Source: Antedon mediterranea
Lineage: Eukaryota; Echinodermata; Crinoidea; Comatulida; Antedonidae
Assembly: GCF_964355755.1 (NCBI RefSeq)
Contig: NC_092670.1
Coordinates: 19,343,201-19,407,200, forward strand
Reading direction: 5' to 3'
Length of the DNA: 64,000 bases
In this document: one piece after another, positions 12,661 to 57,139 of the stretch
Layout of the letters: each line of letters starts with the position of its first letter
Position numbering within the stretch: position 1 is the first letter of the stretch
The notes under the pieces: model-generated
Database searches by the model: none
Seen by the model: the letters and a program-made list of their open reading frames with translations, nothing else
What the model was told of the DNA's origin: nothing
Program-made: the position numbers and the translations under genes

Positions 12661-15600
12661 TTAATCATCAAGCTGACAAAGACTAGCTACTCCACGGTTG
12701 ATCCAGTACGTCTCTGGTTTGTTAGAACTCAAGTCCAGTATCATGACAAAGTTTGTCGAGTGACCAGTTGTTGAGAGTGTTCCCCGACGAGCACTTGTTT
12801 TATAAACTGGACATCTGTAAATGGCCTCTTCGCTGAATTTACTCTTTTCACCAGGTTTTAGCCAAATGATGGGCAACGTATCAAAAAGCAGCTTGGGGTA
12901 AGATTCATTGATGTATTTGAGTTCACGGTCCCAACGAGCTCCTTCCAGAAACAAACCCTAACAAATAAATTTAAAGAGATGAAGAATTTGCAAACAAACA
13001 TCAGCAGAACAAAAAAAAACAAAAGCAGAGAAATACATAGTATACAACTGACTCCAAATAACGAGAGGCAAGCCATGATTCAATGTTTCGATCTTTATTT
13101 GATCATCATCATCAGGAATGAACAATAATTTCAAAGGCAGGGCCTGTCTTAAAAAAAAAAATTGTAGGTAATACATTCAGGGGTGCTGTAGGTGTGCCGT
13201 ATTTTGGTTTATAGAAGTTTAAGTGTGTTGTAAATCACACTCCTCAAGGGCAGTTTAGGAGTGTGTTAGGCTCGCTCACCTCAAAAGAAAAGGTCTGCAA
13301 AGGCAGACAATTATAACTACAGTCTTTTCATAAGTATATAAATGATATATAAACCATAGAGAATTAAAGGTCTTGAGAAACTTTTTATTTCCACTCACAA
13401 GTGGTGGGAAAGTACAGACAAACTGGAAAAACTAATTCTAATCAAAAAGATGTGATGATGCTACAGTATAAAGCACTACACTATCAAACTGTATGTGACA
13501 AAAAAATGTGATGTGCCCATATATGGACATGATGATGTCATATCACTACAATATTTAAGCATATTACTACCATATTTTGGCACATCAGACTTTTGTTTTG
13601 TCAAACTAGTTTGATAGTGTAGACAGAGCATTAAAAATGTGTAATATGTGTAAAGTAAAAATCACTAGAAGCAACCACCAAAAATAAGTGTAGCGTTAAC
13701 TCTTACCTTGACATAAGCACCATCTTCTGGTCTGTTTGGCTCACTGTCTTCCTCATAGCTGGTAACCTCAAACTGAAATCCTAAATGGTCAATTGGAATT
13801 GTGTACTTTCTTGCGAAGTTTTGACTTACACCTAGAAACAAAAATAATATATCAACTTAAACATATTTGTAACTTACAATATGAAAAATCTTATTCAGCA
13901 AGCATCCATCAGTACTGAACATGATGTGATCAGCAGGAAGACTCTACAAAGTTGGTAGTCTATTCTAGAAATAATTGATAATTGTTTAAGCTTTGTTTAC
14001 CTGTTAAGAAAGATTGAGTGAAATAAAATCCAGACAACCAAAATACTTCTGGAGTACCATTATCGATCCAGTCTTGTAAAAACTTCAATCTAATATACAA
14101 CAGATAATATTAATTGCATTTTCTGTGTAAAAGTTCATATCATAGAGATCTAAAAAAAACTCTCTGTACTGCATCTCAACATATGGCATTCATCTGTCTA
14201 GTATCATTGGCAAATTCTGTCACATTTATATATCACACGTGATGCCTGTATTATGTTATGTCAGGCTTATAGCCTATGATACACTAGCATTACATATACA
14301 TACATATGGGATGTATTATATAATTCGCCTACATACCTCTGCAGTAAGTCTGTAACATAACTCCCCATGGGCTTAAGTGACGGATAAGACTTGGCTGCCC
14401 ACATGGTTGGCACCTTCCCCACCAGCATACTGTTGAAGACATCTTCCAACTCTGCAGACATCACCACCAGTCCTTTGATGGCTTTGATGATGTTCTGGAG
14501 ACTAACACGAACAACAGCTGTTAGCCGATTGAATCTGATAAGCTCTTGACGCAAGACTGTGTTCATTGATTCATTATACATTACAGGGTACTTCTCAATC
14601 ACCTTTAAAAAAATACAATTTAAACATTGGTTTTCCCTTTAGATAAATGCGCTGCTTGCATGCTTGCACAGCATTTATTATCAAATTTATAAAATATTAT
14701 AAAAAAAAATGAGAAATAATGCGAATCACATCAATTTACATTATGATATTTATATAAGTACACACTTACTTCCTCAATGTTAAAGTCTGCTGGCAACTTA
14801 GAGAGGATATCACTGGCAAGATCTTGGATTACTTCTTGCGGTGACTTCCCACTGCCACCAGTTTGACGAGGAAGTGTCAAGAGAATGCCTTCAAAAAGCT
14901 TAATGCAAAAAAGAAAGAATTAAAGTTATTACAAAATTGGATAACTTCTCCCTATCATAGCTTAAAAACCAGTGGCCGTATTCACCATTTTCCCGTTAGG
15001 CTAAGGAAACAGTTACTCTTAAAATTAAGAAAAATCTCCTATCTAAGTTAAATACAATTTAAGTGAAACACTTACTGAGTTATGTGAAATACTTAATATG
15101 TAAGGGAAATATCTCACTTAAGTGTGATTGGTGAATATGGCCACAGCGTCTTTGTAACAATGTGTGTGTGGACAGAGTATTGATTTCTTAAAAGTCTCTG
15201 ACCAGATACATGTCTAATAGTATTATTAGTTACCTGTTGAGTTTCCTGGTTGTCTTTCGTGATGTCTGCATTTTCATGAAGACCAAATACTTCTGGATGA
15301 GGAATCAATGGCAGACTTCTGATGTAGTCCAGATAACTGGTGTAATCACCATGATCTGGGGCATAATAATCACCACTATCTGAGAACCTGTCAATCAAAT
15401 ATAACAAATACTTTAATATCATATGTCAAAATGTTTTCAGACAGTTTCTTAATAAAATTATCAAATTAACATTCACTTACGGATATTTTGACTGATCCAG
15501 AATTTCATGGTTGTAAAATTTACTTAAGAGAGCAATTAAGAGTCGTCGATCTTTGTCATCAGTGACACGGCCTCCGTAATTACACTCGCCAGTCAAGTAC

Positions 15601-17366
15601 AACAAGGCGTCAAATGGGGTTACTTCATAGTCATTCAGAAACATCTGATTGGATAAAGAATAGCAATTGTATTAGCACAGGTTTAAACATACCCTATGGT
15701 ATATAGCATCACCCAAATTTAGAATATACATAATGACGTAAGTGGATTTAAGTCAACCACTACATTTGTAGGTACTCTGTTATTAGACGTCCACCCGCCA
15801 TTTTTAGTATTCAGAGACTGGTGTAGAATCTTCAAATATTTAATGTCTTCTTAAACACTAACCTGAATTTGCGTCATACTGATCCTTAGGTCTGATTCGT
15901 TGAACTCATATGGGATGTTCCAACCAAGAGGGCCAAACTTACGCCTCTCTTGCACCAAAGCATGGAAGAAACACAATCCAAATAGCAACTTCTGCCAATT
16001 CTCGGGCTGCAAAAAGTTAAATAATTTGTTTGCTTTATGAAATATTGCATTGTTACTAAAGCTCTGTCTACACTATCAAACTTTATGTGAAAAAAAAGTT
16101 TGATGTCGCCATATATGGTAGTGATATGCCCAAATATGGTAGTCATATGATGTGATATCATGTCCATCACATTGCTTTGTTACATGAAGTCTGATAGTGT
16201 AAACAGAGCATTAGATGTTGATTGGTTTTTCAAACACATGCCTTTTACATATCATCAAAGTGTATCGATCATTTAAATTTATCCTTTTCTTACCTTGTTG
16301 CAGCCTTGAAAGAAACTAGGATCAGAGATAGGATCATTTAGATATGATCGTAGCAAGTTGGCTCTAAGACCCTTAGGTGGCTCATTCGTCATCTTTACAC
16401 CTGGAAGAGAAAAAATACGCAAATTGCTCTGAAAGACTTTGCTGATGTATAATATTTTTTACAGTGTATAATTTGTACAGATTATAAAGGGCGTGAGTAA
16501 GCATAAGTTAATAAAAATAACTAACCATTTTGTAGGATTGACACAGGAAAGCTCTCTGAGGGATAACTTGTCAACCAAAGTCGGAATGAGTTATTAGTAT
16601 TCTCAGGAACAAGAACCTCTTCACAAATCTTCTCTAGCTTAGGCATCCAACTCGTTGCTAAATGGCAATTCTGCAGTATAACCCAATTACCGGTTTTCAG
16701 CCCATCTTCGATCATCTTTTCTGCAATCGGCCCCTGACCCTGCCCAAGAGAAATTGCTTGGACACGGTTTCCAGTGTAGCCTTTGTCCTCTGCAAACTTC
16801 ATCAATCCAGCCATAGGGTCAGCACCAGGAGATAAGACAAAAATCAACGGTGCACAGCAGTGTGAATCAGCAAAACTTCCTGCTAGGTCAAACGTAGGTG
16901 GCTCTATGTATGAACGTCCAATTTTATCGATGATGAAGTCTTGAACAGCGGGTACGATTTTGTCAGGACGGAAACATCTAAGTACTATCATACGTGACAT
17001 TCCAGAGAATCGGTCACAAGTGCCTGGATATTTCTCTTTGTTGGGAGTAGCTGAATCATAGATTTTCTTCCATTCTTTTATGTTTTCTTGAACCTCTGCA
17101 ATAACAAGTTTTTAATGTGTGATCATTTTTCAATGTAAGTTACTCCCTCTTTAGATACTATATAAATAAATGAAACAACAAGAAACAACAAATTGGAATA
17201 CATCTTACCTTCGCGTAAACCTTTAAGGTTCTCCAGATTACTTGCTCTTACAATTTCAGACCATGATTTTTCTGACAGCCATTCAGGTGCAGGATTAGGA
17301 TGTGGGTTTTCCAATGCTACACCACCAGTCAGCAAGAAACGCCACTCGCTGTCGTCAACCTTTCCC
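12661..17366 (-). CDS. DNAH7: Dynein segment: AAA6 and C-terminal domain (residues ~3320-4053)
   Basis: Exons: 17209-17366, 16526-17095, 16294-16400, 15863-16006, 15481-15644, 15234-15387, 14770-14898, 14337-14602, 14001-14089, 13707-13831, 12661-12957. Landmarks are [115 protein letters not shown] and the C-terminal [20 protein letters not shown], ending CQLDD. Exon 16526-17095 (570 nt) is the largest. The acceptor of that exon must be the one leaving AG|GTT, because the alternative two bases away breaks the frame. Confidence 0.97.
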
Positions 17367-20300
17367 CTAATAAACAAAGAAAGAGAGAGTAACTTTTCTA
17401 ATCGTTGTTTTTATACTGTAAAATATTCTCGCATCAATATTCCATGACATATCTAACTAAAACAATAGAACATTAACTATAAGGCACACTACATCATGTG
17501 AATGATTCCATTATTTATTTATTTATGGTATTTTAGTTTCCCTACAATCTATACTCACCTTCCTTGTAATATTCCAACACACAGAACCACAGAGAAAAGC
17601 AGTTTATCCTTCTCAAACAAGGACCTGCAGACATTTCTATAGATACTATCCGTAAAGTGATCATTCAAGTTCTCAATTCTTTCCTCCAGAGATGTTGACT
17701 TCTTGCTGTTCTGAATTGATTGCAGGTAGAGGTTAATGAACCATGTCAGTGAGTACTGGTACATTGGTTCGATGTTGGCAAGCTCTGAGATGCAGAAGAA
17801 CAAAGTTGCTGAATGGACTGCCACTGGCTTGTAACCGTTCCTTGTCTCATCAATCTCTTTTTCAGTTGCTGAAGCAATTTCCTATAAAAAAAAGGCAAAG
17901 TATAAGACTTATATATACTGACAAATTCAACTTTTTTTCAATTGTTTCACAATCCTTTGGGTTCTTAATCTATACTAGACTATACACACCTGTTTAGCTT
18001 GGATTTCTTCTGATAGTGTCTTAGAAGATGATAAAATCTTAATAGCAGTTTCATCCTCTAAGATGTTGCCTTCTGAGCTTGACAAAACTTTTAAGATCTT
18101 GTCTTCGATCTCTTTCAGTTGCCGCTTATTTTCTGCACTTTCTAGGATTAATTGGTTCTTTTTCTCTTCAAGTTCAGGTTTTTCTTTGGCTGCCACGATG
18201 CCGAGGAGTTGGTCTTGTAATCCAAGTGGAGTTATCATAAAGTTTACAAGAACAACCTGTAAAAAATAGTTTGTTCAAATTAATTTACGATTATATTGGC
18301 ATAGCTAGTAAGCCATTCTCTATAGAAACTTTTACAACCAGATGGTTGCCATACAATCTCAGTCCATTTACCTTGACAGATATCTCAGGAAGGTAGTGCG
18401 GATTTCGTAAACTTGTAGTGATGTAGAATCTGAAATCGTGAGAGTACTCAATCACATTTTCACCAAGTCGTAAATACTAAAAGAAAAAACGTAAAATTTG
18501 TTATACTGTACAATATTACTTTAAATCTAGTATTTTTGTTGTATGTTGGAAGTCAAAGTAATATAGGTCAAATAAAACATTGATTGAAATCTTTACCTCA
18601 ACTCCCTGGGATTTGAATGTCTGTTTTAGAAGGATGGGTTCTAAGATTGGATCAAGTTCTTCTCCTATGTTCTCCAATAGCACGGGTTTGCCAAACTGGA
18701 TTGCATTCTCCAGAATGCGTACATAGTTTGGATCCGACAATTTGATAGCAGACAGTTGATTGGCTCTTTCCATATTCTTCACCCATTTGTTTGCTTGACC
18801 TAATATGTTCATAGTCAAAGGAATTATATTATATTTTTTAATTATTTAACTTGGACTAATAAACTAATTAAAGCATTGATGGTATATAAGTAACTATGGG
18901 ATTAGAACCTCTATAAGGGACAAAGCCAACACAGGACCCAACAAACTGTCTGCTCAATAGTGGAGTGGTGTCCCCTGGCCCTAGTGTTAAAACATATTTG
19001 CACCTTGTTTGTTTCATGAAAAAGTATAACCTTAATAGGGTTCCTCTTGAATAGGGGTGTCCCAAAGAAGGGGTTCTAATGTAAGTTTCAATAGAAGTAG
19101 TTTTGTTACCTTGTGGATCAATCATAAGTGGCCATCTTCTTGAGTTTGAGACCATGATACCGTTATCAATGGAGAATGAATCTACAGGTAAGCCAGCAAT
19201 CTGCCAGTCTCTAATTTTGACGGGTTCTCCAAGAGTAGCATTCAAAGAAAAGCTGGCAGAACATGGAATTCTCTTTTCCTTACTCCTAGTCAACCACTCT
19301 TCTGTCGCTTTCTGCAACAACAAAAAATCAGAATGATAAATGTAATGTAAATGAATGCATTATTATTCATCCCCAGTTGAGAAAATATGTTTAGGCCCTT
19401 CACAGACCAACAGCAGCCACAGTCCATAATAAGTAAACACGGAGATGATTCCCGAAATCTTTTCCAATAGTTTCCAAACTTTTTTATCATGCTTTACATC
19501 CCATTTGAAGGATGAGGCACTGCAAACTGATAAGTTCACTGTACATTACTATATTAATACTTTAATTACTTACTTGTCTAAAGTCCACAGTGAAAGCACC
19601 AAGGTACGCAATCACACCAGAAGAGATCAACACATCTCCTGTAATGTTAATATACTTCTCACCCAGGTCCCTCGCCGCTTCACTCCACCGATCTTTTTCC
19701 CCACCGAGACCTCCGATGAGTTTCTCAGCACGGACAAGCTTTTGTGAACAGAGTTCAATGTTGTACTCTAGTTCTTTCTTTTTCTTGATCATTGCTTCAA
19801 ATTCATCATTAAGAGCTTGCAATTTGTCCGAGACTTCTTTCAGTTCGGCACGTTTGGCGTTGAGCTTCTCCATCTGAACGCTAAGTTCTTCTTCAGCAGA
19901 TTTCAATTTCTCTTGCTTTGGCCCAACAACCTAAAAAACAAATTTCAAACATTTCATCATCATACAACTACCTTGCATATAGGTTATCAGTCTCAATATC
20001 ATAGAGGTAGAATCTCCTGATGGTCACTCCTAGGGTGACTTACTTTTGCAACTTTGTCATATATATCCATAGCCCTAACCCATTTACACAAGCCCTCCTA
20101 GCGTGACTTACCTTTGCCACTTTGTCATATATATCCATAGCCCTAACCCATTTACACAAGCCCTCCTAGCGTGACTTACCTTTGCCACTTTGTCATATAT
20201 ATCCATAGCCCTAACCCATTTACACAAGCCCTCCTAGCGTGACTTACCTTTGCCACTTTGTCATATATATCCATAGCCCTAACCCATTTACACAAGCCCT

Positions 20301-23300
20301 CCTAGCGTGACTTACCTTTGCCACTTTGTCATATATATCCATAGCCCTAACCCATTTACACAAGCCCTCCTAGCGTGACTTACCTTTGCAACTTTGTCAT
20401 ATATATCCATAGCCCTAACCCATTTACACAAGCCCTCCTAGCGTGACTTACCTTTGCCACTTTGTCATATATATCCATAGCCCTAACCCATTTACACAAG
20501 CCCTCCTAGCGTGACTTACCTTTGCCACTTTGTCATATATATCCATAGCCCTAACCCATTTACACAAGCCCTCCTAGCGTGACTTACCTTTGCCACTTTG
20601 TCATATATATCCATAGCCCTAACCCATTTACACAAGCCCTCCTAGTGTGACTTACCTTTGCAACTTTGTCATATATATCCATAGCCCTAACCCATTTACA
20701 CAAGCCCTCCTAGTGTGACTTACCTTTGCAACTTTGTCATATATATCCATAGCCCTAACCCATTTACACAAGCCCTCCTAGTGTGACTTACCTTTGCAAC
20801 TTTGTCATATATATCCATAGCCCTAACCCATTTACACAAGCCCTCCTAGTGTGACTTACCTTTGCAACTTTGTCATATATATCCATAGCCCTAACCCATT
20901 TACACAAGCCCTCCTAGTGTGACTTACCTTTGCAACTTTGTCATATATATCCATAGCCCTAACCCATTTACACAAGCCCTCCTAGTGTGACTTACCTTTG
21001 CCACTTTGTCATATATATCCATAGCCCTAACCCATTTACACAAGCCCTCCTAGCGTGACTTACCTTTGCCACTTTGTCATATATATCCATAGCCCTAACC
21101 CATTTACACAAGCCCTCCTAGCGTGACTTACCTTTGCAACTTTGTCATATATATCCATAGCCCTAACCCATTTACACAAGCCCTCCTAGCGTGACTTACC
21201 TTTGCAACTTTGTCATATATATCCATAGCCCTAACCCATTTACACAAGCCCTCCTAGCGTGACTTACCTTTGCAACTTTGTCATATATATCCATAGCCCT
21301 AACCCATTTACACAAGCCCTCCTAGGGTGACTTACCTTTGCAACTTTGTCATATATATCCATAGCCCTAACCCATTTACACAAGCCCTCCTAGTGTGACT
21401 TACCTTTGCCACTTTGTCATATATATCCATAGCCCTAACCCATTTACACAAGCCCTCCTAGCGTGACTTACCTTTGCCACTTTGTCATATATATCCATAG
21501 CCCTAACCCATTTACACAAGCCCTCCTAGTGTGACTTACCTTTGCAACTTTGTCATATATATCCATAGCCCTAACCCATTTACACAAGCCCTCCTAGTGT
21601 GACTTACCTTTGCAACTTTGTCATATATATCCATAGCCCTAACCCATTTACACAAGCCCTCCTAGCGTGACTTACCTTTGCCACTTTGTCATATATATCC
21701 ATAGCCCTAACCCATTTACACAAGCCCTCCTAGCGTGACTTACCTTTGCAACTTTGTCATATATATCCATAGCCCTAACCCATTTACACAAGCCCTCCTA
21801 GCGTGACTTACCTTTGCCACTTTGTCATATATATCCATAGCCCTAACCCATTTACACAAGCCCTCCTAGCGTGACTTACCTTTGCCACTTTGTCATATAT
21901 ATCCATAGCCCTAACCCATTTACACAAGCCCTCCTAGGGTGACTTACCTTTGCAACTTTGTCATATATATCCATAGCCCTAACCCATTTACACAAGCCCT
22001 CCTAGGGTGACTTACCTTTGCCACTTTGTCATATATATCCATAGCCCTAACCCATTTACACAAGCCCTCCTAGGGTGACTTACCTTTGCAACTTTGTCAT
22101 ATATATCCATAGCCCTAACCCATTTACACAAGCCCTCCTAGCGTGACTTACCTTTGCCACTTTGTCATATATATCCATAGCCCTAACCCATTTACACAAG
22201 CCCTCCTAGGGTGACTTACCTTTGCAACTTTGTCATATATATCCATAGCCCTAACCCATTTACACAAGCCCTCCTAGGGTGACTTACCTTTGCCACTTTG
22301 TCATATATATCCATAGCCCTAACCCATTTACACAAGCCCTCCTAGGGTGACTTACCTTTGCAACTTTGTCATATATATCCATAGCCCTAACCCATTTACA
22401 CAAGCCCTCCTAGCGTGACTTACCTTTGCAACTTTGTCATATATATCCATAGCCCTAACCCATTTACACAAGCCCTCCTAGCGTGACTTACCTTTGCAAC
22501 TTTGTCATATATATCCATAGCCCTAACCCATTTACACAAGCCCTCCTAGCGTGACTTACCTTTGCAACTTTGTCATATATATCCATAGCCCTAACCCATT
22601 TACACAAGCCCTCCTAGTGTGACTTACCTTTGCAACTTTGTCATATATATCCATAGCCCTAACCCATTTACACAAGCCCTCCTAGCGTGACTTACCTTTG
22701 CAACTTTGTCATATATATCCATAGCCCTAACCCATTTACACAAGCCCTCCTAGTGTGACTTACCTTTGCCACTTTGTCATATATATCCATAGCCCTAACC
22801 CATTTACACAAGCCCTCCTAGCGTGACTTACCTTTGCCACTTTGTCATATATATCCATAGCCCTAACCCATTTACACAAGCCCTCCTAGCGTGACTTACC
22901 TTTGCCACTTTGTCATATATATCCATAGCCCTAACCCATTTACACAAGCCCTCCTAGCGTGACTTACCTTTGCCACTTTGTCATATATATCCATAGCCCT
23001 AACCCATTTACACAAGCCCTCCTAGCGTGACTTACCTTTGCCACTTTGTCATATATATCCATAGCCCTAACCCATTTACACAAGCCCTCCTAGCGTGACT
23101 TACCTTTGCCACTTTGTCATATATATCCATAGCCCTAACCCATTTACACAAGCCCTCCTAGCGTGACTTACCTTTGCAACTTTGTCATATATATCCATAG
23201 CCCTAACCCATTTACACAAGCCCTCCTAGCGTGACTTACCTTTGCCACTTTGTCATATATATCCATAGCCCTAACCCATTTACACAAGCCCTCCTAGCGT

Positions 23301-26300
23301 GACTTACCTTTGCCACTTTGTCATATATATCCATAGCCCTAACCCATTTACACAAGCCCTCCTAGCGTGACTTACCTTTGCCACTTTGTCATATATATCC
23401 ATAGCCCTAACCCATTTACACAAGCCCTCCTAGTGTGACTTACCTTTGCAACTTTGTCATATATATCCATAGCCCTAACCCATTTACACAAGCCCTCCTA
23501 GTGTGACTTACCTTTGCAACTTTGTCATATATATCCATAGCCCTAACCCATTTACACAAGCCCTCCTAGTGTGACTTACCTTTGCAACTTTGTCATATAT
23601 ATCCATAGCCCTAACCCATTTACACAAGCCCTCCTAGTGTGACTTACCTTTGCAACTTTGTCATATATATCCATAGCCCTAACCCATTTACACAAGCCCT
23701 CCTAGTGTGACTTACCTTTGCAACTTTGTCATATATATCCATAGCCCTAACCCATTTACACAAGCCCTCCTAGCGTGACTTACCTTTGCCACTTTGTCAT
23801 ATATATCCATAGCCCTAACCCATTTACACAAGCCCTCCTAGCGTGACTTACCTTTGCAACTTTGTCATATATATCCATAGCCCTAACCCATTTACACAAG
23901 CCCTCCTAGCGTGACTTACCTTTGCAACTTTGTCATATATATCCATAGCCCTAACCCATTTACACAAGCCCTCCTAGCGTGACTTACCTTTGCCACTTTG
24001 TCATATATATCCATAGCCCTAACCCATTTACACAAGCCCTCCTAGTGTGACTTACCTTTGCAACTTTGTCATATATATCCATAGCCCTAACCCATTTACA
24101 CAAGCCCTCCTAGTGTGACTTACCTTTGCAACTTTGTCATATATATCCATAGCCCTAACCCATTTACACAAGCCCTCCTAGCGTGACTTACCTTTGCCAC
24201 TTTGTCATATATATCCATAGCCCTAACCCATTTACACAAGCCCTCCTAGCGTGACTTACCTCTGCAACTTTGTCATATATATCCATAGCCCTAACCCATT
24301 TACACAAGCCCTCCTAGCGTGACTTACCTTTGCCACTTTGTCATATATATCCATAGCCCTAACCCATTTACACAAGCCCTCCTAGCGTGACTTACCTTTG
24401 CCACTTTGTCATATATATCCATAGCCCTAACCCATTTACACAAGCCCTCCTAGGGTGACTTACCTTTGCAACTTTGTCATATATATCCATAGCCCTAACC
24501 CATTTACACAAGCCCTCCTAGGGTGACTTACCTTTGCAACTTTGTCATATATATCCATAGCCCTAACCCATTTACACAAGCCCTCCTAGCGTGACTTACC
24601 TTTGCCACTTTGTCATATATATCCATAGCCCTAACCCATTTACACAAGCCCTCCTAGGGTGACTTACCTTTGCAACTTTGTCATATATATCCATAGCCCT
24701 AACCCATTTACACAAGCCCTCCTAGGGTGACTTACCTTTGCCACTTTGTCATATATATCCATAGCCCTAACCCATTTACACAAGCCCTCCTAGGGTGACT
24801 TACCTTTGCAACTTTGTCATATATATCCATAGCCCTAACCCATTTACACAAGCCCTCCTAGCGTGACTTACCTTTGCAACTTTGTCATATATATCCATAG
24901 CCCTAACCCATTTACACAAGCCCTCCTAGCGTGACTTACCTTTGCAACTTTGTCATATATATCCATAGCCCTAACCCATTTACACAAGCCCTCCTAGCGT
25001 GACTTACCTTTGCAACTTTGTCATATATATCCATAGCCCTAACCCATTTACACAAGCCCTCCTAGTGTGACTTACCTTTGCAACTTTGTCATATATATCC
25101 ATAGCCCTAACCCATTTACACAAGCCCTCCTAGCGTGACTTACCTTTGCAACTTTGTCATATATATCCATAGCCCTAACCCATTTACACAAGCCCTCCTA
25201 GTGTGACTTACCTTTGCCACTTTGTCATATATATCCATAGCCCTAACCCATTTACACAAGCCCTCCTAGCGTGACTTACCTTTGCCACTTTGTCATATAT
25301 ATCCATAGCCCTAACCCATTTACACAAGCCCTCCTAGCGTGACTTACCTTTGCCACTTTGTCATATATATCCATAGCCCTAACCCATTTACACAAGCCCT
25401 CCTAGCGTGACTTACCTTTGCCACTTTGTCATATATATCCATAGCCCTAACCCATTTACACAAGCCCTCCTAGCGTGACTTACCTTTGCCACTTTGTCAT
25501 ATATATCCATAGCCCTAACCCATTTACACAAGCCCTCCTAGGGTGACTTACCTTTGCAACTTTGTCATATATATCCATAGCCCTAACCCATTTACACAAG
25601 CCTTCACAAGCAGCAGAAATATTTTTAATCACAGCTGGATCAAAATCTGGATTTGGAATGTATCTAAAATAATAAGTTCAACATTAACATTACAGTCAGA
25701 CAGTAGTACAATATGAAAAAATACGGATACATGTAGGATAGGAAAGAATAGAAGTCATTGGGGTTTCAGAATAATATTATAAAATGTCTAGTATTGTTGA
25801 TATAAAGCCATGTATATACAGTTCTGAAAAGAACTGTAGAGAAATTTAACAGTTCTTTTCAGAACTATTTATACGTGGTGTACCACAAACTTTATATCAA
25901 CATTTGATTTCGCCATGTAAACTTTCAAACAATATTTGTCTAGTATTGTTAAAGATGGAGACATTATGATTTTTAAAAAAAAACATCTTACGTGGCTCGA
26001 ATTTTCTTAATAACTGCTGGTGGAATAGCATCCTTATTGTATGTCTTCAAAGACTCCAAGAATTTCATATCACTAAGAACTTTTTGAGATGGTCCCCAGT
26101 AGTCTTCCACCATCTTGCCACTGCCGGATGGATCAGGTTTTCTCTCTGGTTTGATTCCCTTCATAATGCAGATAGATTCCATCACAAGTTTGACACCATG
26201 TGGAGGGTTCTATGGAAGAAATAAAATATAATTATTTTTATGCAACGACTATAATGATTATAATAAAAACAAACACAAAGCATTTAAAGGTCCTATAAAT

Positions 26301-29300
26301 AACCTATCCTACCTTCATGGATTTGACCATTGAGATGTCACTTGGTTTCAGTGTGTTGAGGGCTTGTATGGAAGACTCCAGTGCTGGTATAGCTTCAGCA
26401 AGATCGCTTTCACACTCATCTTTAATGGACTTGGCTGCGGCTGCTGCTTCATTTGCAACTGCTTCATCTGCTCCTACAAGCTGCAACACAAATTATCACC
26501 ACATATACTTTTTATTATGCAAGTTTTTTTGTCTCATGTATACAACAAACAGACTAAGTGTAAATAGCTATCCCAATTGGTAGGAATCCTTTAAGACAAT
26601 TTATACAATATACTGTACAAAAAGAGACCTTGTTAGCACCAAGATTCATAAAGCTCATAGAGCATAAAGTTAAAAGCACACTTACTTCTTTCTTAGCCTC
26701 TACTTCCACTGTATCCTGTTCAATCTTTATCATAAGTTTATCAGTTTCCTCCGATGTCTTGATCAGCTCTGGTTGAAGGTCCGTCAGTTCCTGTTGCATC
26801 ACTGACACCTGAGAGGCGGCAAAGTCTAATTTCTCCAGACCAATCAGATATCGGTTCTTCAAATTCATGATCTCTGTTCTCTTTAGGTGCAGAAGCTTCT
26901 TGAAAGTCATTATTAATTCCAAGTAAGAGGTTGGTGTGACATAGTTATGGCGTCGAAGGGTATCCAAAAACCTGTTGGAGTGTTTTAGTAATCAAAATTA
27001 TTCAGTCAATACTGTTTTATCACACTGTTACTAATTTTATTTGGTTAATTGATAAGCACCGTCTACACTATCTAACTTGATGTGACAAAAAAAGGGTGTG
27101 TGTGTGCCCAAATATGGTAGTGATATGATGTCATTGTGTCCATTGATATTTTTTTGACATAAAGTTTGATAGTGTAGACAGATCTAGATCCTATTTCAAT
27201 TAAGTACATGATGTTTCTTAAACTAAAACAGTGTCATGAGACTTGAATTCAGTTTGAAAAAGAAATATACAATGACAGTGTGCTTACGTTTCTGACATCA
27301 GTCGGACACTCTCATGAAAATGCTGACACATCCAGACACAAGAATCTCGGATTTCGTCTTCCAGATCCATGTCCTCCAAGAACCTGTTGGCAACCATCTG
27401 CAATGCATCTGGAGGCCAAGCCTGCACGACGAAAAGACATACATAATCATTATACTGTCATCAAACAGAACTGAAATATTCTCTAATGTACAGTACAGAT
27501 ATTGTATAATTTTTTACACAATACTACATTCTGGCATTTTAATGCAACCACTTTAAAGTGTCTTTCAGACCTGCTCCGGTCCAGCAAATAAAATTGCATC
27601 TCAATGTTTCGTTTTCAAGACACTCGACGCAGCTATGCACCAACCATTTTTCTCGAGCGTAACCACATAGTGTATTGTGAGAAAAAATAGTTTATAATGC
27701 TGGACACAAAATCAGGAGTAAACCGGAACCAGAGCAGGACCGGAGAGCAGGTGTTTACACTCACCTGGAACCAATCAATTGTACAGCAGTTGATGAGTGA
27801 TGGAAACATTCTAAGCCTGTTTCTGAAGGCATCTCCAATAGGACTCATAGCTAGCACCACATGTAGGTTACGACGGACACGTTCAATGAAAAAGTTATAC
27901 ATTGATAATGGAGTAGCTTCAATTTTTCTTCCCTAAAAATCATACAATATAAGGATTAGTGGTACTGGTAATGGCAGGAATAAAGGTTAGTGCTGGTTGT
28001 AGTTGTTTCTTTGCATTCATCCTGGCACAATTGAATTACATTCAACATAATCTGCAGCCTGTTGAATCATTCTCTGTAAATACCTGACAAATGGCACACG
28101 TGCTTGCATTATATATGTTCTAGATGTAATATGTAATGGCTATATATTGATTGTTAATTAACTGTTTACAACTAGACTAAAGCTCTGTCTACACTATCAA
28201 ACTAGTTTGACAATAAAAGTGCCCAAATATGGTAGTGATATGATGTCATAGCATCCATGTATGGGCACATCACTTTTGTTGTCAAATTTGATAGTGTAGA
28301 CAAAGCTTAAGATAATAATTATGATTTGATAATAAATATGGGTCTGGTAAATATGATGATATTGAAGATGCCTTATGTTAACTAACATGCAGTATACTAA
28401 AGTTTAACAAAACCCCTTTTCATAGTTGTTGTTACTAGCATCTTGCATCTTGCAAAGATTACCCATTCTGTCTCTATAAATTGTAAGTCTAACATGCAGT
28501 TAACTAGTTATCTTTATTCATTATAATGTTATGATTGAGTACTACTGATATTCATAATAATGATAATAATAATAATAATAATAATAATACAGTAATAATA
28601 ATAATAACAAAGCAATGATAATAATGAAGATGTTGAAGATAAATTTATCCATGCTGTCATCTAGGAATATAAATAGGGCTGGGATTGAAGATTACAATAT
28701 GATGATTTTCACATGTATTGATGAAGACTATATCAATTATTGTGATTATGGTAATAATTCATTATGAAAACTAAAGAAAGATGACATGACGATGAATAAG
28801 GTTTTCAATGGCATAGATACAACCTTGTTCCTAGAACGCCCTTCAATGCGGTCCTTGTGCTCTTGCTGTTCATAAGAGTAATAATTATTTGTAATAAGCA
28901 AAATCATTTAAATAATAATATGCTAATAGGGAGGGGAGAGCCCTTCAATTTTAGAAATTAAGACAATTCCATTTTTAATTGAGGGGTGTTCTAATAGAAA
29001 AACACAATATAGATTTTATCAAATAAAGTATAAAATGTTGGTACTTTGTAGGTACTTTGTTTCTTACCTCTACTCTGGCAGCTTGTTGCATTTTTTCAAT
29101 AATTTCTGCTTTCTCATCAGCTGGGTAGAGATTGGGAACATCTCCAGTGTTTAGGATCATGTTGATGTCTTCAACAAAGGATTCATCTTTTATCTGGTTA
29201 TCTCCAAATAGAAAGACGGTTTGCTTGCCTTCTGAACCGGCTTTCAACAAGAGCTGTAAAGAATAAAGGCATTGAAATTGACTGGTCATAGGTTTTTTTA

Positions 29301-32300
29301 TTGCTTTAATAGATTTTGCAAGACATGACAGGAAACCAAGCTCAATCACAACTATTTGTCTTTCAACATGATTGTTTAGCAAGAGTGTGAAATACTATAC
29401 CTTTTTCAAATCTTCTCTCCATTCATTCGATGTGTAGTTCTTAGTGATTTCAATCTGGAAGAGTTCGTAGTCAGCCATGAATGTTGCCAGTTTGGTAGCA
29501 CTTTGACGACCGCTTCCACCAATACCTAATAAACAAAATAATAAATAGAAATATGCAGTTTCATTTCGCATTTGACACTTTTTACAAATTTTGAAGGGCA
29601 CATGTTTAGTAGTCTGACTTGATTTGATATATACTACATAGTTTAATGTGTGTATAATGTTGATGGGTTGAATGGTGAGAATATTTCATGAGTTGAAAAA
29701 ATGCCTTACCTATCAGCAATGCATGTCCATTGTCTTGTTTCAGCACCCGACACACACGTGAGATATGTTCAATGGCAAACTTAAACATGACTAGGCTCAT
29801 TGGAGCTTTGCTTATCTGATTATACTCAACTAAGTAACCCTCCATAACTGATGTGAGCTGCTTCAAGTCTGCTACTTCATCATAGGCTTTCACATCCGAG
29901 TCTGGGTTGATGAAGTCACAAAAGAACAAGGAGCGGATGTTATCGTCGATGAGCTTACCGCTCGGCGACAGGTGGCTTAGAACTTTGTCCAAGCTCTGCT
30001 TGAATGAGCTTTGTGTCATCTCTTTCACAATACCAAAAAATGTTTGTCTAATAAATAAATAATAGAAACATAACTTTTAATTTGTACTACTTCCCAGATG
30101 TTTGTGATTGACATGCTTCCTTACAAATCTTAGAATCGGTGCTCTACACTTCTACACCAAGGTCAGACTAGGTTCCAATTCAGCCAATGATTAACGTTGT
30201 CATGATTCTTACCCAAAGATAATCTTAGTAATTGAGAAAGGGCAGTAGTGCCCTAGAAACCTGTGGCTGTTTTCACCATTCACACTTAATCTAAAGAAAG
30301 CATTTACCCTTAAAATTAATATCCTATCTAAGTGAATACGATTTAAGGGAAATACTTCAATATTTATTGAGTTTAGTAAAATACTTAATATTTAAGAGAA
30401 ATATCTCACTTAAGTGTTATTGGTGAATACGGCCAATAGGTACATACAAATTCACAGTACAAATATTTTTCTCCAACCATCAACAGTACTATAACCTAAA
30501 CTTAAGACTTAGGACTTGGTATGGAATCATGCTTTTATTTCTCATTGGTAATTGGTGATCAATATTACTGTGACAAATATGAGAAAAATCCTACCTGTCA
30601 TTTTCATCAATAAGACGATCATAAAACACACGGTAAACTTCATGGATCCAGAGACGTATCAACTTATCTTTGTCATCCTCAACAAGATGTGTCTTTGGTG
30701 CCAATAAAACACCTCTTATGACGCGAGCAAAATCACGCAGGTTGAAAACGTAATGTGATTTAGATGGTGTGGGCAAGAAGTTGGTTATAGCAGCCTTGTA
30801 GACACCCATCGTTGCTTGGACCATTATCTGTAGAATATAACTAAAGTTAAATATACTAAACAATCTTTTGGATGCTGACCCAATCAACTTGATATCTAGA
30901 TGGCCCAAAACCCATGACCAATACTAGATGGCCCATGACCAGGCTTACTAGATGGCCCAAAACACATGACCAAGCTTTACTAGATGGCCCAAAACCTATG
31001 ACCAGGCTAGATGGTCCAAAACTCATGACCAGGTTTACTAGATGGCCCGAAATCCATGACCATCTTATTAGAAATCCTTTGTCATACTAAACTTTACTAT
31101 AAAATAACCTTTTTGTTAACAGCTAAATCATACCAAACATGGTAGACTACTATTTACAATCATGGTAGATGACCTTGTTTTAAAATCTCACCTTTCCTAG
31201 TCGTACAAAAGCACCATCATAGCCTTTGGCGAAATGCCAATCAGTGATGTTTGTGAAAATCTGTGTCATTGTAGCATCGTCAAAAGAGTCAATAGATATT
31301 ATGTTGAAATGGCGAGTGAAACGGCCGGTAATGTCGTTGCGTCCACCACCTGGCGGTCCCATGGCTGTCACTATAATCTTTTTTTAAAATACAAAATGGA
31401 TTAAAGAGTTTATATAAGAGAGTCTGTTTTCTATGCACAAAGAATAAATACATATATTGGCTAGAGTTAGAATAACTATGGCGGTTTTTAGTAGCAGTGG
31501 AGTGGGAGTTTTAATGGCAGAAAGCATTTGCAGTCAGCCTAGTGGCAGTAGTAGTGGAAGCCACACTGGTGTCATTGGTTGTTTGAAATGATAGAGCAAC
31601 TTACTGTATCAATAAGTTCAAGTTTGGAAGTATCTTTCTTATCAAACCAATGTTTGTGATCAATCCACTGCCTGAGCAATTCAATTGGAGGTTGCGCTCC
31701 ATACACCTCCTTAGCTGGCATGTTCAGATCATCTACAAATAACACACATTTCTTGTTCATTGGCGGCCCATACACACCCTTTCTTCGCCTAAATAGGAAA
31801 GTATAAAATGATTCTAATAAAAATGTGTTACTTTAGCTGAAAAAAGACAATACTTACCTAATACATAATTTGCACATTAAAATAATACACACCTATCCAA
31901 TTTAGACATGATAATATCTTGCGTCTGATTTGCTGATGTACGAGCAGAAAAATTGATGTTATTTGGTAAGAACCTGTATTGAAGAAGAAACAAATGTTAA
32001 ATGTTAAACAACTGGACTTAGTTTTCATGGCATGCTTGGAAATGTCGGAAAACAGTTTAAAAAACACTTACTGTTCTTTTGGCAATCCAACTAGGTAGTC
32101 ATTGGTAATGGCGGATTTTCCAGTACCAGTTGGTCCTATGAACATTAATGGTGTGCCATGGCTAAGGTATGTGTCCAAGAAAAACACCTGTTTAGCTGTG
32201 TCGTTGGTTTGAATGATCAAATCACTAACCTAAAAAGATAAATGTTGGAACATATTTAAAGATCTTTGTGTTAGCAGGAATCAGTGATCATATTCATCAA

Positions 32301-35300
32301 TCACACTTAAGTGGGATATTTCTATTGAAAAGTAATAATTTCACTTAAGTCAATACAAATTTAAAGATTTCCCTTAAATGTGAAAACGGCTAATGGGTCC
32401 TCTATTTTGCTGGATGAGAGAAAAAGAGAAGCTCAAATGAAAACCACTACTACATCACACCAATGAATATCAACAGTAAATACATCAACTGTTCACAAAA
32501 ATGATACAACATTCTGAGTAAACTTTCAAATGATACAACATTCTGAGTAAACTTTCAAATGATACAACATTCTGAGTAAACTTACTTTTGATACAACATG
32601 CATATAATATTACTTCCATTCACTTACTTTTGCATCTTTTGGCAACACTGATTTTTCTTTATCAATATAATCAATCCAATCAGTCCATTTTCCACTTGCT
32701 TGCTTTTCAAAGAAATAATCATAAACAGTTCCTCTTTCTGGAAATGAGTTGCTCTGAAAATAAACGTAAAGACAGTTCATAGGACAATTTATATTTAGGC
32801 ATATCACTACCATATTTGGCATATCACTACCATATTTGGCATATCACTACCATATTTGGGCACTTTTTTTGTCAAACTAGTTTGATAGTGTAGACAGAGC
32901 TTTAGTTTAACAATCATAAGTGTAGTTTCTTCATTTTATACCTTTGTAATTTTGATGCTCTTTGGTTTTGGATGGTTTGGATCAGTTCCACTAATTAACA
33001 CACGGAAGAATTGATCAAACTTCTTGCAACTGTCGCTGTTCAGTGTTCCACCAACTGTCCACACAAGAGAGAACAGGAACAGCCCTTGCAACCACAGGGT
33101 TATCTAAGTGAATAAAAAAATTATTCTCCATAATAGAGTAGTAGTAATCATAGAAAGAAGAACTGGTTGTGCATACTGGAATTGTATTAGAATCTTCAGA
33201 GACAATATAGGGTCAATCCACCATTCGTTCTATAGTTATTTAGCCAGGTAAAATTAGCAATAATTGGCCAATGAAACCAAACGGTGAATAACCAAGCCTG
33301 AACGAATTCATAGTGTTTTGATATAAAGTTTGCGGTACACCACGTATATTAGTTGAACTGTTGAGAAGTTCGCCATGCAAACCTTTAAACAATATATTTA
33401 TAGTGTTTATTAATTTAGGAATTAGTCTGCTGTCCTCACTCACCTGTTGATTGCTCATTTCTGGTTGGCCTTCTTGTCCAGACACTGCAATTTCATCCAT
33501 GAGGCATGTGTACAGGTTCATTAGTGAGTTGGCGAGATGAATTACAGATGTCTGGATGAACACTTTACACTCGTGTCTGATGAAATCTGAAACAAAGCAA
33601 ATAAATAACTATGATGATATGCCAGCACTTTTAGTTATGCTATACATTATGTTGCATTGACCACTCGCTCTCTTTCTTTCTTGGAAATGTCTACAACTAA
33701 AGGCCAACTCAGACTGCGTCGTACAACAAGGCTGATAAGACATCTTGACTCATCAGTACTGTCCGAGTTGAATCCTGACAAGACAAGTCGTCTTGAGATA
33801 GCGACGGGCATAGTTTTTAGGTATTCATGAAAACTTTAAACATGTTTAATTTTCTCCCGACAAGAAGACTCCTCTGGCCTCGTCATACAACGCTGTTTGA
33901 GTTGGCCTTAAAACTGAGTATACAAGATTAGTTTTTGGCAGCATACAATGTATACTGTAGGTCTCTTGCCAGATGTAATACAGGAAATGAAACCACTAAC
34001 CCCAACAAGGATCAATCAACCACTCAAACAAGTCATTGATCATTTCCTTATGTTCCTCTTTGACAGCAGGTGGTAGATTTTCCATGTACGATGTCTTAAG
34101 AGGACGCCATCCAAGCTGGTGTGGTTCCATGTAGATCATACCACATCTACTGACAGTAGCTGGTGAGGCTTGCTCTAAGTCTGCAGGCTCAAAGATCAAA
34201 TTCTGCTTGTTGTTCATTTGAATAATCTCACCACTCATCAAACATAGCTAAAAAAATAAATATTTTAGCTAAGCATGGAGTTGTCTAATGAGTACATCAT
34301 TACAGGCTGTACTTTATTATAATATGTTATAATATAACCTCTATTACAGGGAAACATTCGGGACATAAACTGTCCCTTTAAGCGGGGTGTCACCTGAATA
34401 GAGATTGGCTGTACTGATAAAACTTGTTTGTTCGGGAAAGTGTCCGCAATATAGTTTGTGAGGAGGAGAGGTTCTACTGTAAATTGTGTTATTGCTTGAA
34501 ATGTCCATCACTTGAATCACCAAAAAAGGTCAAAGAGGATGGAGTTTTAACTTGAATTTCAGGTTGAGGCTATTAGTAAGCACAAGTTTCTTTGAATCAT
34601 GTATGTAAACTTTACTTTACCTTCTTATTGTCATCCAAGACCGTGTTCATATTTTCAATCCAGACAGCATCCACTGGGCCATCAAACAATATCCACTTCC
34701 GATCTTCAGACTGTGAAGCAGCTTGTTCACGAAATGTATTAGCCAGCACACCTAAAAGAAATCAATACTTTTATTTAATTTTTATTGAGCACATACATCA
34801 GTGTTTCACATGGTATCAACGGCTTGTTGTTTCAGCTGAAAAAAATCTTTGCATTCCTTATATGTATTATTATTAAACATATTAAAATTTATTACAGAAA
34901 GCATAAAACAACTGAGTCAAATAGGGATGCTAATGTAATTCTAAAGCTCTGTCTACACTATCAAACTAGTTTGACAAAAAAAGTGTGATGTGCCCAAATA
35001 TGGTAGTGATATGATATCATCATGTCCATATATGGGCACATCACATGTTTTTGTCACATAAAGTTTGACAGAGCTTAATTGAATAAAAATGTATCTCCTT
35101 ACCATCTGTCCATTCATGCGAGACGGGGTCAAAGCAACCATATAGCTGACCCATAGTGATAGCCTTAGGGTTTATGATTTCAAAGATAACCTTAAACTCA
35201 TTCATTAGCCCTCCTGCGTGTAGATCTCCAAGAGCATTGGCCAGCACCTTATAGGCTGATGTCTTGCCTCCCATCGGGTCGCCTACGATCATGAAGCCAT

Positions 35301-38300
35301 GACGCACAAGCATCATCTCATATATCTGGATAATTTTCTCAATGAACCATGGAACAGCTTGTAACTTCAACTTGGTGATGTTCTCATTGAGAGCTTCAAG
35401 AAGGACGACATAGTCTGGTGTTGGCAAGACCACACCTGGAAACAAGTCACTGATGATTCCTTCAAACAATGGCACATCCTAGTAACAAAAAATATACATA
35501 TACTGAAGACTTTCACAATTATCAATTACATTATATAATAAAAAAATGTATAGTACTGTACAAAGATGTATGGTACTGTTATAGGGTGGTAAGGTACTAA
35601 CTTAATGTGACAAAAAAATGTGATGTGCCCATATATAGACATGATGTCATATCACTACCATAATTGAGCATATCACTGCCATATTTGGGCACAACACACT
35701 TTTTTTGTCAAACTAGTTTGATAGTGTAGACAGAGCTTAAGATCATAGTATAAAAATATAAATGTGTGGAGGGTACGATTATACAAACCTGAGCTAAGAA
35801 CTTTGGTAAATTAACATCTTTAATAGCCCTCAATAACAGAATACTCTCTTTCTCATCTGGAAGAGCTAACTTCAAATTACCAGCAGCTGTCAATACAGAC
35901 TTTACTGCACGCATCCCATAATCATAGTGATGCTGGGAAGACAACTGTTCTGAACACAACCGGTATGTGGCAACGATTTTTCCAGCAAGACTTCGTGCAT
36001 CAACAAATCCCATACTGTAGAGAACAATCTCACCAATCATACCATAGTCAGGTACCATCATGGCTACCGTTCTGAACAGAACCTATGAATATAAAATAGA
36101 TTTCAGTATTGCATTATTGTATGTCCATCATAAAGTATTTCTGTCACCCAAGAGAGCAAACAAATTGTTGGAATGGTAAGGAAGTAATTTTGGTTTCCAT
36201 TTGAAAATGCAACGCAAGGATGTAGACGCATGAAAAGCGACAGTTTGCATAATCCATCACTTGTAATTATGCAAATCGATTGTACTTGCTTTGCATCTCT
36301 AGTGGGAACCAAGCATTAGACTTGCACAAGAGAAGGCATGAGTTTGAGACATGTATGTTGCAATTCTTTACTATCAATTGATTTGTGATTGGATTACTCA
36401 AATCACTTACATTTTGTTTACGTACTTACATTGCATCTCTAGTGGAACCAAGCATTAGACTTGCATTAAAGGAGGTATGTTACAATTCTTTCCTATCAAT
36501 TGATAAAGTTTTATATAAAAGTAAATCAAACTTATATCTGTAAAACCTACCTTTAAATTGTCAGGAAGATCAGATCTACCAGCATAGCCTGGGTTCATTG
36601 TGATGAACATGGTACACGTAGGATTTAAAGTCAACTCAGTCCCTTCAAACATAAACTTCTTTTGATTTCGCTGGATAGCATGCTGAATACTTTGAATCTG
36701 TTGAGCAACCACAGACAAGACTTCTAACTCGATCCGGTTAAACTCATCAAAGCATGCCCAAGCGCCAGCCTGTGCTAGTCCTTTAAAGAACTTCCCCATA
36801 GCTTTGTAATCCAAGCCATCTGAGCAGTTGAAGACAACGCATTGTTTGGCTACTGCTTTAGCAAGATCTTTGCTGGTCTCAGTCTTGCCTGTACCTGCTG
36901 GGCCTTCAGGAGCACCTCCAAGATTCAATTTCAGAGCACCCATCAGCGTCCTAGTAAAAAAATATAGATGGTTTGGAGCATTATGAATTGGTCAGTGTAT
37001 TATGTATGTATAATAGGCAAAAGCAAAATCTGTGTTACCTGTAACACCTATCTGTAAGTGGTGTGATAACCAAGCGTCCACTATTTCCAAGGTATTCATA
37101 GCCATATCGAATCTGTGTAGTTATCATCTGAACGTCAACTTCTGTGCCATTGAAGTAGTAGCGAAGTTGGCTGATCCAGTTGAAGTCAGCCTCTGAAGAC
37201 ACATCAAGTTCTTCTAAGCGAGCAACGACATCTCTGGCTAGAAGAGGTAAAGAACAAAGTGAATTAGCTAATGCAAATATTGAGAGAAGACCAATGGAAG
37301 TGTCACGAATGGTAAGCATTGACAAGTAGCATCAGGACACATTATTTTCAAATTAGCCTGGAAATAAGAAAGTAAATTTGGTTGACATTATCTTAAATAT
37401 GATGCATTTTACATAAACAAAATTAAACTGGTGGCTATTGATTGTATACAGTTAGCGCACATGTTGATGTTCAAAACATCACTTCCGCAACCCACTAGAC
37501 CACTATCGTATATAAATATATGTATTTTTTTTTTCTTTTGTTATGTTAAGTAGTAACAAAGAAGGCAGGGGTATACAGGCTGTGGTAGGGCTTTGACAGG
37601 TAGTAGGCAGAAAGAAGTAATCAATCTTACCATGTACATCCATAACTGTCAGAGCACCAAGTGTGACCCTGGCACCCTTCTCTAACTTGCCACGTACAAG
37701 ATCAACGATGTCACTCAGGTTCTCATTACTCTTCTCTAGGTATTTCTAAGTAAACAAAAAATATAAATGTAAGTAGTGGCATTGTAGCTGTGTCTTTATG
37801 CTTACCTGCCAACTAATAGCAAGGTACTCTAATGTTCTAATGGTCAAACAAATACATAATAGTTAAAATACACCTTCCAGTTCTTACATACCTTGAGTCC
37901 TCCTTTTTCTGTGATAGCCTCTGCAACTTCAGTTGTCCAATAAATCTGTGTACAGCAGAGGACGACCTGTCCAGGCCACTCTAGTACCCATTTGTTACGT
38001 GGGATGCTGGCATAGGCTCCTGTACCATCCTGAATGACCTTGCGAACACTCGCTATCATGATGTCTTCTACTTGGGCTAGCCATTTCTCAACCATACCCT
38101 ACAAAAAAATTGTGTAAATTCATTTTAAACAACATTGATTATGGGAAAGTATACATTACCTTTATTCATGTTACTGAAACTGTTTTACGGGTCTATCACA
38201 CCTGTTCCGGTCCGGCACCGGCAAATCAAATCGAACGTCAATGTTTGTTTTCACAACGCTCTACGTTGACATGCGCATAGCCGCGTGAAAACAAAACATT

Positions 38301-54600: not shown

Positions 54601-54924
54601 TTTTATGTTTTTTTCTACCTTTCTGGAAAATGATATAATCCAAATTTTATTAATAATACCAGTAGTAAACATTTAGAAACACTTGCATACCTTCAATAAT
54701 TTTAGTTGTTTGTAGTTTAAGACAATCTTAGTGATATTTAAATGAAAACAATACGATAAAAACTATTGTGTCTGTATTTTACAAGACTATGACTTCCGTA
54801 TAACGTGCATTGTGGGTACTTCAATTTTTATAGAAAAGCTAGGGAATCCTAATTTAGTAGGCAGCATATGGGGGCGGGGCAACCAAACTTGCTTATCAAA
54901 TCAAAGCACAGTAAAGCAAAGGAT

Positions 54925-56700: not shown

Positions 56701-57139
56701 ATCAACTTTAATACTATTTATTAAATAAAAAAAACTAATTCTATATTAACACATATTATTTACATATACTTTCACTGCTGACTTCTAGTATAAACAGGCC
56801 ATAGGCCTATACATGGCTGCAGTCGCGTGCTCAAATTTGAGTTGGTGCTTACCGACCGACCGACCGACATAGTGAGCTGTAGAGTCGCGTTTGCACGCTA
56901 CTAAAAAGTTCACAACAACCGTAGGACGGGCACAGCGGAGTTTGTTCGAAACTCCAACCCCTCCCCTGGCTATGCGTTTAGATTGTTCATGCCTCCTTTA
57001 CAAACCAAGATTATTAGAATACTATTAGGAGGATCAAACACAATTCTTGTTGCCAGATTTCATTGACATTACAGGTATGAAGTCTATCAATATACAGTAC
57101 CGCTTAATACAATACTTGTTGAGGCCATATCCATCTATA
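56701..57139. other. Spacer between satellites
   Basis: Includes a short CCGACCGACCGACCGAC microsatellite (about 56855) followed by ATAGTGAGCTGTAGAGTCGC, an oddly GC-rich patch. No gene is recognised. Confidence 0.5.

Follow-up and report, generated by a model that had tools for sequence, protein, structure and literature searches.

A tandem array of 82 exon ends and splice donors in a DNAH3 orthologue of Antedon mediterranea

How does a gene keep its reading frame when the end of one of its exons, together with the splice donor that follows, is present 82 times in a row? Such an array lies on the reverse strand of the window, the whole stretch of 64,000 nucleotides of Antedon mediterranea DNA analysed here (contig NC_092670.1, positions 19,343,201 to 19,407,200), and we asked which gene carries it, which of its donors can maintain an open frame and whether other genes of the same genome carry comparable arrays.

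Array anatomy and host gene

A preliminary description of this DNA had reported a 68-bp unit repeated about 82 times between positions 20027 and 25601, each copy holding 17 codons and 17 intron bases. TRF places the array at 20027..25602 (period 68, 82.0 copies, 98% matches, 0% indels), one base longer than described, and direct parsing resolves 82 uninterrupted units with 81 of 81 spacings equal to 68. Every unit comprises the last 51 nt of the exon and the first 17 nt of the intron, as proposed. The amplification of an exon/donor boundary to 82 copies in a DNAH3 orthologue is confirmed, with a copy number taken from one assembly. A 301-base query from the boundary returned at least 36 matches in the 354-Mb assembly, 35 of them at the DNAH3 locus; the one other match listed is 75% identical (contig C2).

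The parse distinguishes eight unit types. Unit position 45 is T or G (GTT or GTG, Val either way) and the intronic position 61 is G, A or C, while position 49 varies in a single unit, position 51 in the last unit and all other positions are invariant. The sequence AAAGGTAAGT occurs 80 times within the array, and AAGGTAAGT occurs outside it once on the sense strand and not at all on the other strand of the window. The donor reads AAAG|GTAAGT in 80 of 82 units; the exceptions are AGAG|GTAAGT in one unit and AAAA|GTAAGT (10.5 vs 13.2 bits) in unit 82 (20027..20094), the unit nearest the acceptor. The order of the variants repeats in blocks, with units 2–16 equal to units 38–52 and units 28–40 equal to units 69–81. 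Units 1 and 82 share the combination T45 + C61, which is present in 11 of 82 units. Head-to-tail units of about 10–100 bp in many copies of high identity characterize minisatellites or VNTRs, and the array (68 bp × 82, 98%) has this form. Intronic minisatellites and VNTRs consist of tens of near-identical units, each some tens of bp long, and show block duplications; the DNAH3 array differs from them in general in that it starts inside a coding exon and carries a splice donor in every unit.

The preliminary description had further placed the array at a dynein exon/intron boundary, with the amplified codons in the stalk and a join of 25552 to 19930, and all three assignments are borne out. Three protein structure-database searches across the motor domain each ranked 8j07_g3 (Dynein axonemal heavy chain 3) above DNAH7 and DNAH12 and as the best of the named chains; a differently labelled chain, 9fqr_Xx, ranks first. 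By best match, the gene is a DNAH3 orthologue. The stalk domain PF12777 is matched. Our partial gene model spans 14336..38646 on the reverse strand with 21 introns and some unmodelled stretches, the largest at about 29257–35100. In this model, the join of 25552 to 19930 is the best-scoring splice, in phase 0, and is contiguous in DNAH3 proteins, including the solved DNAH3. It connects an upstream exon of 112 nt (25552..25663), whose last 51 nt open the array, with a downstream exon (19574..19930) that begins at the acceptor GTTTGAAATTTGTTTTTTAG (11.0 bits). Only unit 1 (25535..25602) is putatively coding, with the true donor presumably at 25552|25551.

The intervening intron would extend over 5621 nt (19931..25551), with 96 nt separating the array from its putative acceptor. 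Its 20 counterparts in the model measure 88–1135 nt. Because 113 nt remain once the 81 extra units are subtracted and the acceptor lies outside the array, an intron of 113 nt with its own acceptor probably preceded the array.

Donor strength, reading frame and internal acceptors

The array donor scores above all 20 other modelled donors of the gene. It had been described as close to the U1 consensus, and it is a near-perfect fit to the 5′ end of the U1 encoded by this genome, ATACTTACCTG, as read in 3 of 42 U1 matches. The predicted frameshift and stop after use of any later donor also hold: 80 of the 81 downstream donors lead to a stop inside the array and the remaining one to a stop in the next exon. 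Since all 81 lead to a stop, an open frame would, as judged from the sequence, require use of the first donor.

Strong acceptors are absent from the unit. The best AG inside the array scores -0.6 bits, compared to a leave-one-out median near 7 for the acceptors of the gene. The weakest of the 20 other acceptors, at -1.8 bits, scores below this AG, so that weak use of an internal AG may occur. An in-frame 54-nt cassette, using the acceptor CTAG|GAG of each unit, was rejected at an acceptor score of -6.7.

We also rejected hiding of the decoy donors in hairpins. The G45 variant is predicted to form a 5-bp hairpin around the donor (-4.3 vs -0.5 kcal/mol for T45), and the predicted accessibility of the 9-nt donor is nevertheless alike, with a mean of 0.015 for T45 (n=44, including the real donor), 0.023 for G45 (n=38) and 0.021 for the real donor. 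Predicted openness of the inner GUAA is 0.68 for G45 vs 0.06 for T45 and 0.08 for the real donor, the opposite of hiding. A 408-nt piece of the array folds no better than its shuffles (z 0.86).

Recurrence at other exon edges

We examined 37 donor-bearing arrays in the genome, of which the 36 loci besides DNAH3 are those among the matches listed and within the unit lengths of the patterns, not a census. For seven of them, homology identifies an exon whose donor edge the array occupies, in DNAH3, USP9X, a STAT5-like STAT, PI4KA, ZW10, DHX8 and CFAP54, and four further arrays probably occupy such an edge. The other 26 were not placed on exon edges (L012–L015, L018, L022, L024–L030, L044, L062–L064, L066–L073 and L075). 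At locus L023, the array probably adjoins an exon of Mitoguardin; the Pfam match (24.4 bits, cut-off 25) falls on the downstream exon rather than the amplified one. Locus L011 gave no convincing Pfam or PDB match, and its exon is presumably LRSAM1-like. At PI4KA, a search of the roughly 3.9 kb that follow the array found no ORF of at least 40 aa resembling a next exon; a shorter exon could have escaped it. Amplification to this depth had been called very unusual. The array is deep, and none of the matches listed in our searches of open-licence full-text literature describes an exon/donor edge amplified to great depth; it is, however, not one of a kind, since arrays with different units occupy donor edges of other genes in the same genome.

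Experiments on how a choice is made among equal 5′ splice sites generally set only a few donors against one another. In the natural genes found here, the number of consecutive near-identical donors ranges from three to 82, which offers ready tests of exon-proximal, intron-proximal and strength rules. ZW10 adds a case in which the exon-proximal and presumably true donor is weaker than its own decoys (AAG|GTTAGT, 11.2 bits, vs AAG|GTAAGT, 13.4 bits), so that a strength rule would choose a decoy. A repeat that expands across the edge of a coding exon can persist in a conserved gene, which bears on the reading of repeat expansions and of intron lengthening; at such loci, the exon ends given by gene predictors may be misplaced.

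We claim no enrichment of donor-bearing arrays, since control patterns read backwards matched in comparable or larger numbers in most donor searches (for example, among the matches listed, 31+25 against 75+54 and 1416+43 against 26+153). For acceptor edges, patterns with TTTTYAGG x3 returned at least 23 loci, of which 21 were examined, two copies of one C5 family being left out and 16 of the 21 being seen on the 3′ side only. We read no donor-versus-acceptor asymmetry from 7 of 37 against 1 or 2 of 21. Homology places one of the 21 on an exon start (L040, OST-HTH PF12872, E 2.8e-8), and L047 presumably lies on the exon start of a DEAD-box DDX54-like gene.

A probably tolerated minisatellite and its alternatives

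We consider it probable that such arrays are minisatellites that started across an exon edge and are tolerated because the donor nearest the exon is chosen under exon definition, which leaves the extra copies in the intron. A small tandem duplication covering the 3′ end of the exon and the donor of the otherwise 113-nt intron may have seeded the array, which would then have reached 82 copies through slippage or unequal exchange, multi-unit blocks being copied as well. The spliceosome would define the 112-nt exon across the exon and pair its first donor with the one good acceptor, which lies 5.6 kb further on, so that the 81 extra copies would leave with the intron, nearly invisible to selection. 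The same process would act at donor edges of other genes in the genome. We count for this reading (i) the array anatomy, the block repetition and the T45/C61 combination in units 1 and 82, (ii) the frame kept by the first donor only together with the weak internal AGs and (iii) the same architecture in the six other genes identified by homology. We count against it (i) the acceptor-proximal donor, which intron definition would favour because only 113 nt separate it from the acceptor, (ii) other short introns of the gene, one of 103 nt lying two introns upstream, and (iii) the weaker exon-proximal donor of ZW10, the possible use of an internal AG and the control matches in comparable or larger numbers.

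In the accessible part of one report, two identical CAG|guaagu donors competed in five minigenes whose flanking introns measured 365 nt, and only the upstream one was used; genes with near-equal donors preferred the upstream one with long introns and the downstream one with short introns (PMC9225289). This cross-exon proximity rule concerns two donors in human minigenes, compared to 82 in a natural gene. Since exon definition settles on the upstream of two identical strong donors (PMC9225289), a silent array would be a simpler reading than the U1 sink, slow splicing or nonsense-decay switch suggested in the preliminary description.

A functional decoy, in which tens of U1 snRNPs per intron stall spliceosome assembly and tune DNAH3 output through intron detention or nonsense decay, is unlikely. 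The 80 AAAG|GTAAGT donors at a single exon edge would suit it, and acceptor-like sites within the range of true ones occur in the STAT (8.1 bits) and USP9X (8.4 bits) arrays. Known decoy exons promote intron retention, and the decoy of OGT intron 4 resembles the DNAH3 array in holding largely unused 5′ splice sites whose blocking, in the portion of the source available, leads to constitutive splicing (PMC12017769). That decoy, however, is described there as a single exon, about 150 nt long, that contains several weak sites of both kinds, 5′ and 3′ (PMC12017769), whereas the DNAH3 array adds 81 copies of strong donors only, its best internal acceptor falling at the -0.6 bits given above; moreover, genes with donor-edge arrays share no obvious function.

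It is improbable that exon ends with donors, recurrently amplified in the lineage, are kept as a splicing element tunable by copy number, in which dozens of U1-binding donors directly after the true one strengthen definition of the preceding exon or, with acceptors, detain the intron. An assembly artefact or a collapsed or expanded copy number is quite improbable: the block-wise unit order could also arise by misassembly, but unit variants are scattered through the array, comparable arrays built from other units occur independently at other genes and 5.6 kb is within reach of long reads. Recursive or dual-specific splicing, in which AAAG|GTAAGT serves as acceptor and donor and parts of the array are removed in multiples of 68 nt with the exon end and donor regenerated, has in its favour the AG|GT junction in 81 of 82 units, acceptor scores of up to 4.0 bits for AG|GT in the USP9X array and 3.6 in that of DHX8, and human UBC, where tandem dual-specific sites are in use, one of them with a 3′ score of -0.21 in the part of the report available (PMC10809524), and is nonetheless very improbable in DNAH3, where AG|GT scores -1.7 (median) or -2.9 bits as an acceptor (-10.4 in ZW10) and lacks a pyrimidine tract, the putative acceptor lies beyond the array and the intron length, 5621 nt, is not divisible by 68.

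Two known systems are related to the DNAH3 array in other respects. Polyubiquitin UBC shares tandem units with an AG|GT splice junction, and its splicing can hide repeat expansions; as far as the accessible text describes them, each of its units is a coding monomer whose length, 228 nt, is divisible by 3, and the repeat provides both 5′ and 3′ sites (PMC10809524), whereas in the 68-nt DNAH3 repeat only unit 1 is putatively coding and the donor alone is repeated. In intron gain by tandem duplication, too, the duplicated segment extends over an exon edge and brings along the splice signals of the parent sequence. In the case covered by the available excerpt, one duplication over an intron–exon boundary (first intron, second exon) created a new intron; in DNAH3, by contrast, 82 copies at a donor edge would lengthen an intron.

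The amplified exon end of the DNAH3 orthologue

Using TRF and a parse of individual units, we resolved the array at window positions 20027–25602 into 82 units of exactly 68 bp and eight unit types, without a single indel, which bears out in sequence the preliminary description of an exon/donor boundary amplified about 82 times. Read in gene orientation (minus strand), each unit comprises 51 nt of exon end, followed by GTAAGT and 11 further intron bases. Common differences between units are restricted to positions 45 (GTT/GTG, both Val) and 61 (intronic). The order of unit types recurs blockwise (units 2–16 equal 38–52 and units 28–40 equal 69–81), a pattern expected from unequal exchange or duplication of blocks. 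The combination of T45 and C61 is found in the exon-proximal unit 1 and the acceptor-proximal unit 82, and in 11 of the 82 units altogether. These array findings rest on one assembly; searched against its 354 Mb, the boundary region yielded at least 36 matches, 35 of them at the DNAH3 array locus and one of 75% on contig C2, in a region (L016) that codes for another dynein heavy chain and in whose 4 kb TRF reported no array. In every unit the codons TGG GTT AGG GCT produce GGGTTAGGG, a telomere-like 9-mer, and strand asymmetry across the array is strong (GC skew about −0.5 on the plus strand).

For the concatenated strand ORFs, Dynein axonemal heavy chain 3 (8j07_g3) is the best named chain, followed by DNAH7 and DNAH12; 9fqr_Xx ranks first, but under another label. 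We built a spliced model covering part of the gene on dynein alignments, requiring AG and permitting GT or GC, where GT was picked throughout. The model has 21 introns, the array intron measuring 5621 nt and the others 88–1135 nt. The join of 25552 to 19930 proposed earlier scores best, is in phase 0 and yields DKVAK-VVGPKQ, contiguous in DNAH3. PF12777 spans both joined exons, a region that we take to be the return strand of the dynein stalk.

Splice signals and donor choice

Splice sites were scored with matrices trained on the 20 other introns of the DNAH3 model. The array donor reaches 13.2 bits (other donors, leave-one-out: 5.4 to 12.3) and the acceptor at 19931 reaches 11.0 (other acceptors: −1.8 to 13.3, median near 7), while the highest-scoring AG within the array gives −0.6 as acceptor; the intron thus offers 82 donors and one good acceptor. 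One real DNAH3 acceptor is as weak as the array AGs. The U1 snRNA cluster of the assembly (contig C5, 15664856–15752909) comprises 42 matches, mostly 1.7–1.9 kb apart and all on the plus strand; in the three of these that were read, the U1 gene 5′ end is ATACTTACCTG.

The exon-proximal donor is the sole choice that leaves the DNAH3 frame open. The stop predicted after any later donor was found in every case, in the next exon for donor 2 and within the array for donors 3–82. Intron definition would favour the donor of unit 82, 113 nt from the acceptor, and exon definition would favour that of unit 1. For two identical strong donors with flanking introns of 365 nt, PMC9225289 describes exclusive use of the upstream donor and, transcriptome-wide, a donor preference that follows intron length. 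The intron upstream of the amplified DNAH3 exon measures 328 nt and the one downstream owes its length to the array, so that the exon-proximal donor is expected to be used. We infer that the array is removed by splicing along with its intron. Predicted RNA folding of the DNAH3 array gave no sign that the decoy donors, those of later copies, are hidden. Slower splicing, binding up of U1 and intron retention are conceivable effects of these decoys. Retention is caused by a decoy exon in OGT, which carries both splice sites (PMC12017769); the DNAH3 units do not hold both in strong form.

Donor-edge arrays at other genes

Minisatellites within introns are known. Tandem repeats with splice junctions are described for UBC (PMC10809524), and a single duplication over an exon edge for potato RdRp (PMC4974935). 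Among the literature matches listed, we found no report of an exon/donor edge present in tens of copies with the first unit alone coding, nor of a genome in which several conserved genes show such amplification. Tandem exon-donor duplication to this depth had been called very unusual; within this genome, donor-edge arrays also stand at six other genes.

We searched the whole assembly for exact matches to three donor motifs, AAGGTAAGT or forms of AGGTRAGT restricted in the next base, spaced roughly 37–99 nt apart. The matches listed form at least 36 loci besides DNAH3, and sequence was retrieved for each of the 36, either complete, partial or limited to the 5′ side. Seven of the 37 arrays, including DNAH3, lie on a homology-supported exon donor edge, again among the matches listed. 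At DHX8 (unit 37, about 23 copies) the spliced join is contiguous with human DHX8 (E 1e-102), at a STAT5-like gene (L019; unit 69, about 10 copies) it is contiguous with STAT5B, and at USP9X (L017; unit about 88, 9 donors) PF25010 extends over the join (E 9.6e-96); together with DNAH3, these are the four genes in which the next-exon join was tested. The exon match at PI4KA (unit 65, about 13 copies) stops with the final complete codon ahead of the donor, the amplified ZW10 exon (L031/L035; unit 89, coordinates indicating about 39 donors) corresponds to a PF20665 match (E 4.3e-7), and at CFAP54 (unit 79, at least 3 donors) the exon match to 9ijj_H reaches the donor (E 2.3e-10). The mitoguardin array (L023) is probably also at an exon donor edge, as are those of L011, L021 and L065, where an open exon lies behind a fair to good acceptor. 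An exon edge is therefore supported or probable in 11 of 37 donor arrays; the remaining 26 lack such support, and short exon peptides leave many unclassified. Of 21 acceptor-motif arrays examined among the matches listed, one lies on an exon start by homology, and one further array presumably does so. Control patterns read backwards match in numbers comparable to the donor patterns, and the result is therefore one of recurrence, not enrichment, of donor arrays.

Variation between arrays and neighbouring repeats

At ZW10, roughly 38 AAG|GTAAGT decoys lie downstream of an exon-proximal donor, AAG|GTTAGT, that is weaker than they are. For a test of donor choice, this is the most suitable single locus. 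L011 has GTAAGT at six junctions and GTTAGA in the last copy. Acceptor-like sites in at least some units of the STAT (8.1 bits) and USP9X (8.4 bits) arrays are in the range of true ones; judged by these scores, both arrays may therefore hold complete tandem pseudo-exons, and the DNAH3 array holds none.

Retroelement-like ORFs, recognized by eye, adjoin donor-containing arrays at L022/L038 and L012. At L039, positions 445–1472 hold 19 copies of a 54-bp unit, a length divisible by three, and the array has a long open frame (PVDNLYTGQGRDIEACHG repeats). Within the window, two 106-bp arrays (54923–56717, about 17 copies; 58854–61688, about 27 copies), whose consensus units appear mutually reverse-complementary, enclose 87–88-bp arrays at 57654–58753, and together these look like a large inverted minisatellite cluster. 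A CATATCACTACCATA-like 20–21-bp repeat, perhaps a small dispersed element, occurs at separate sites (window 16101, 32791, 35648 and 48137).
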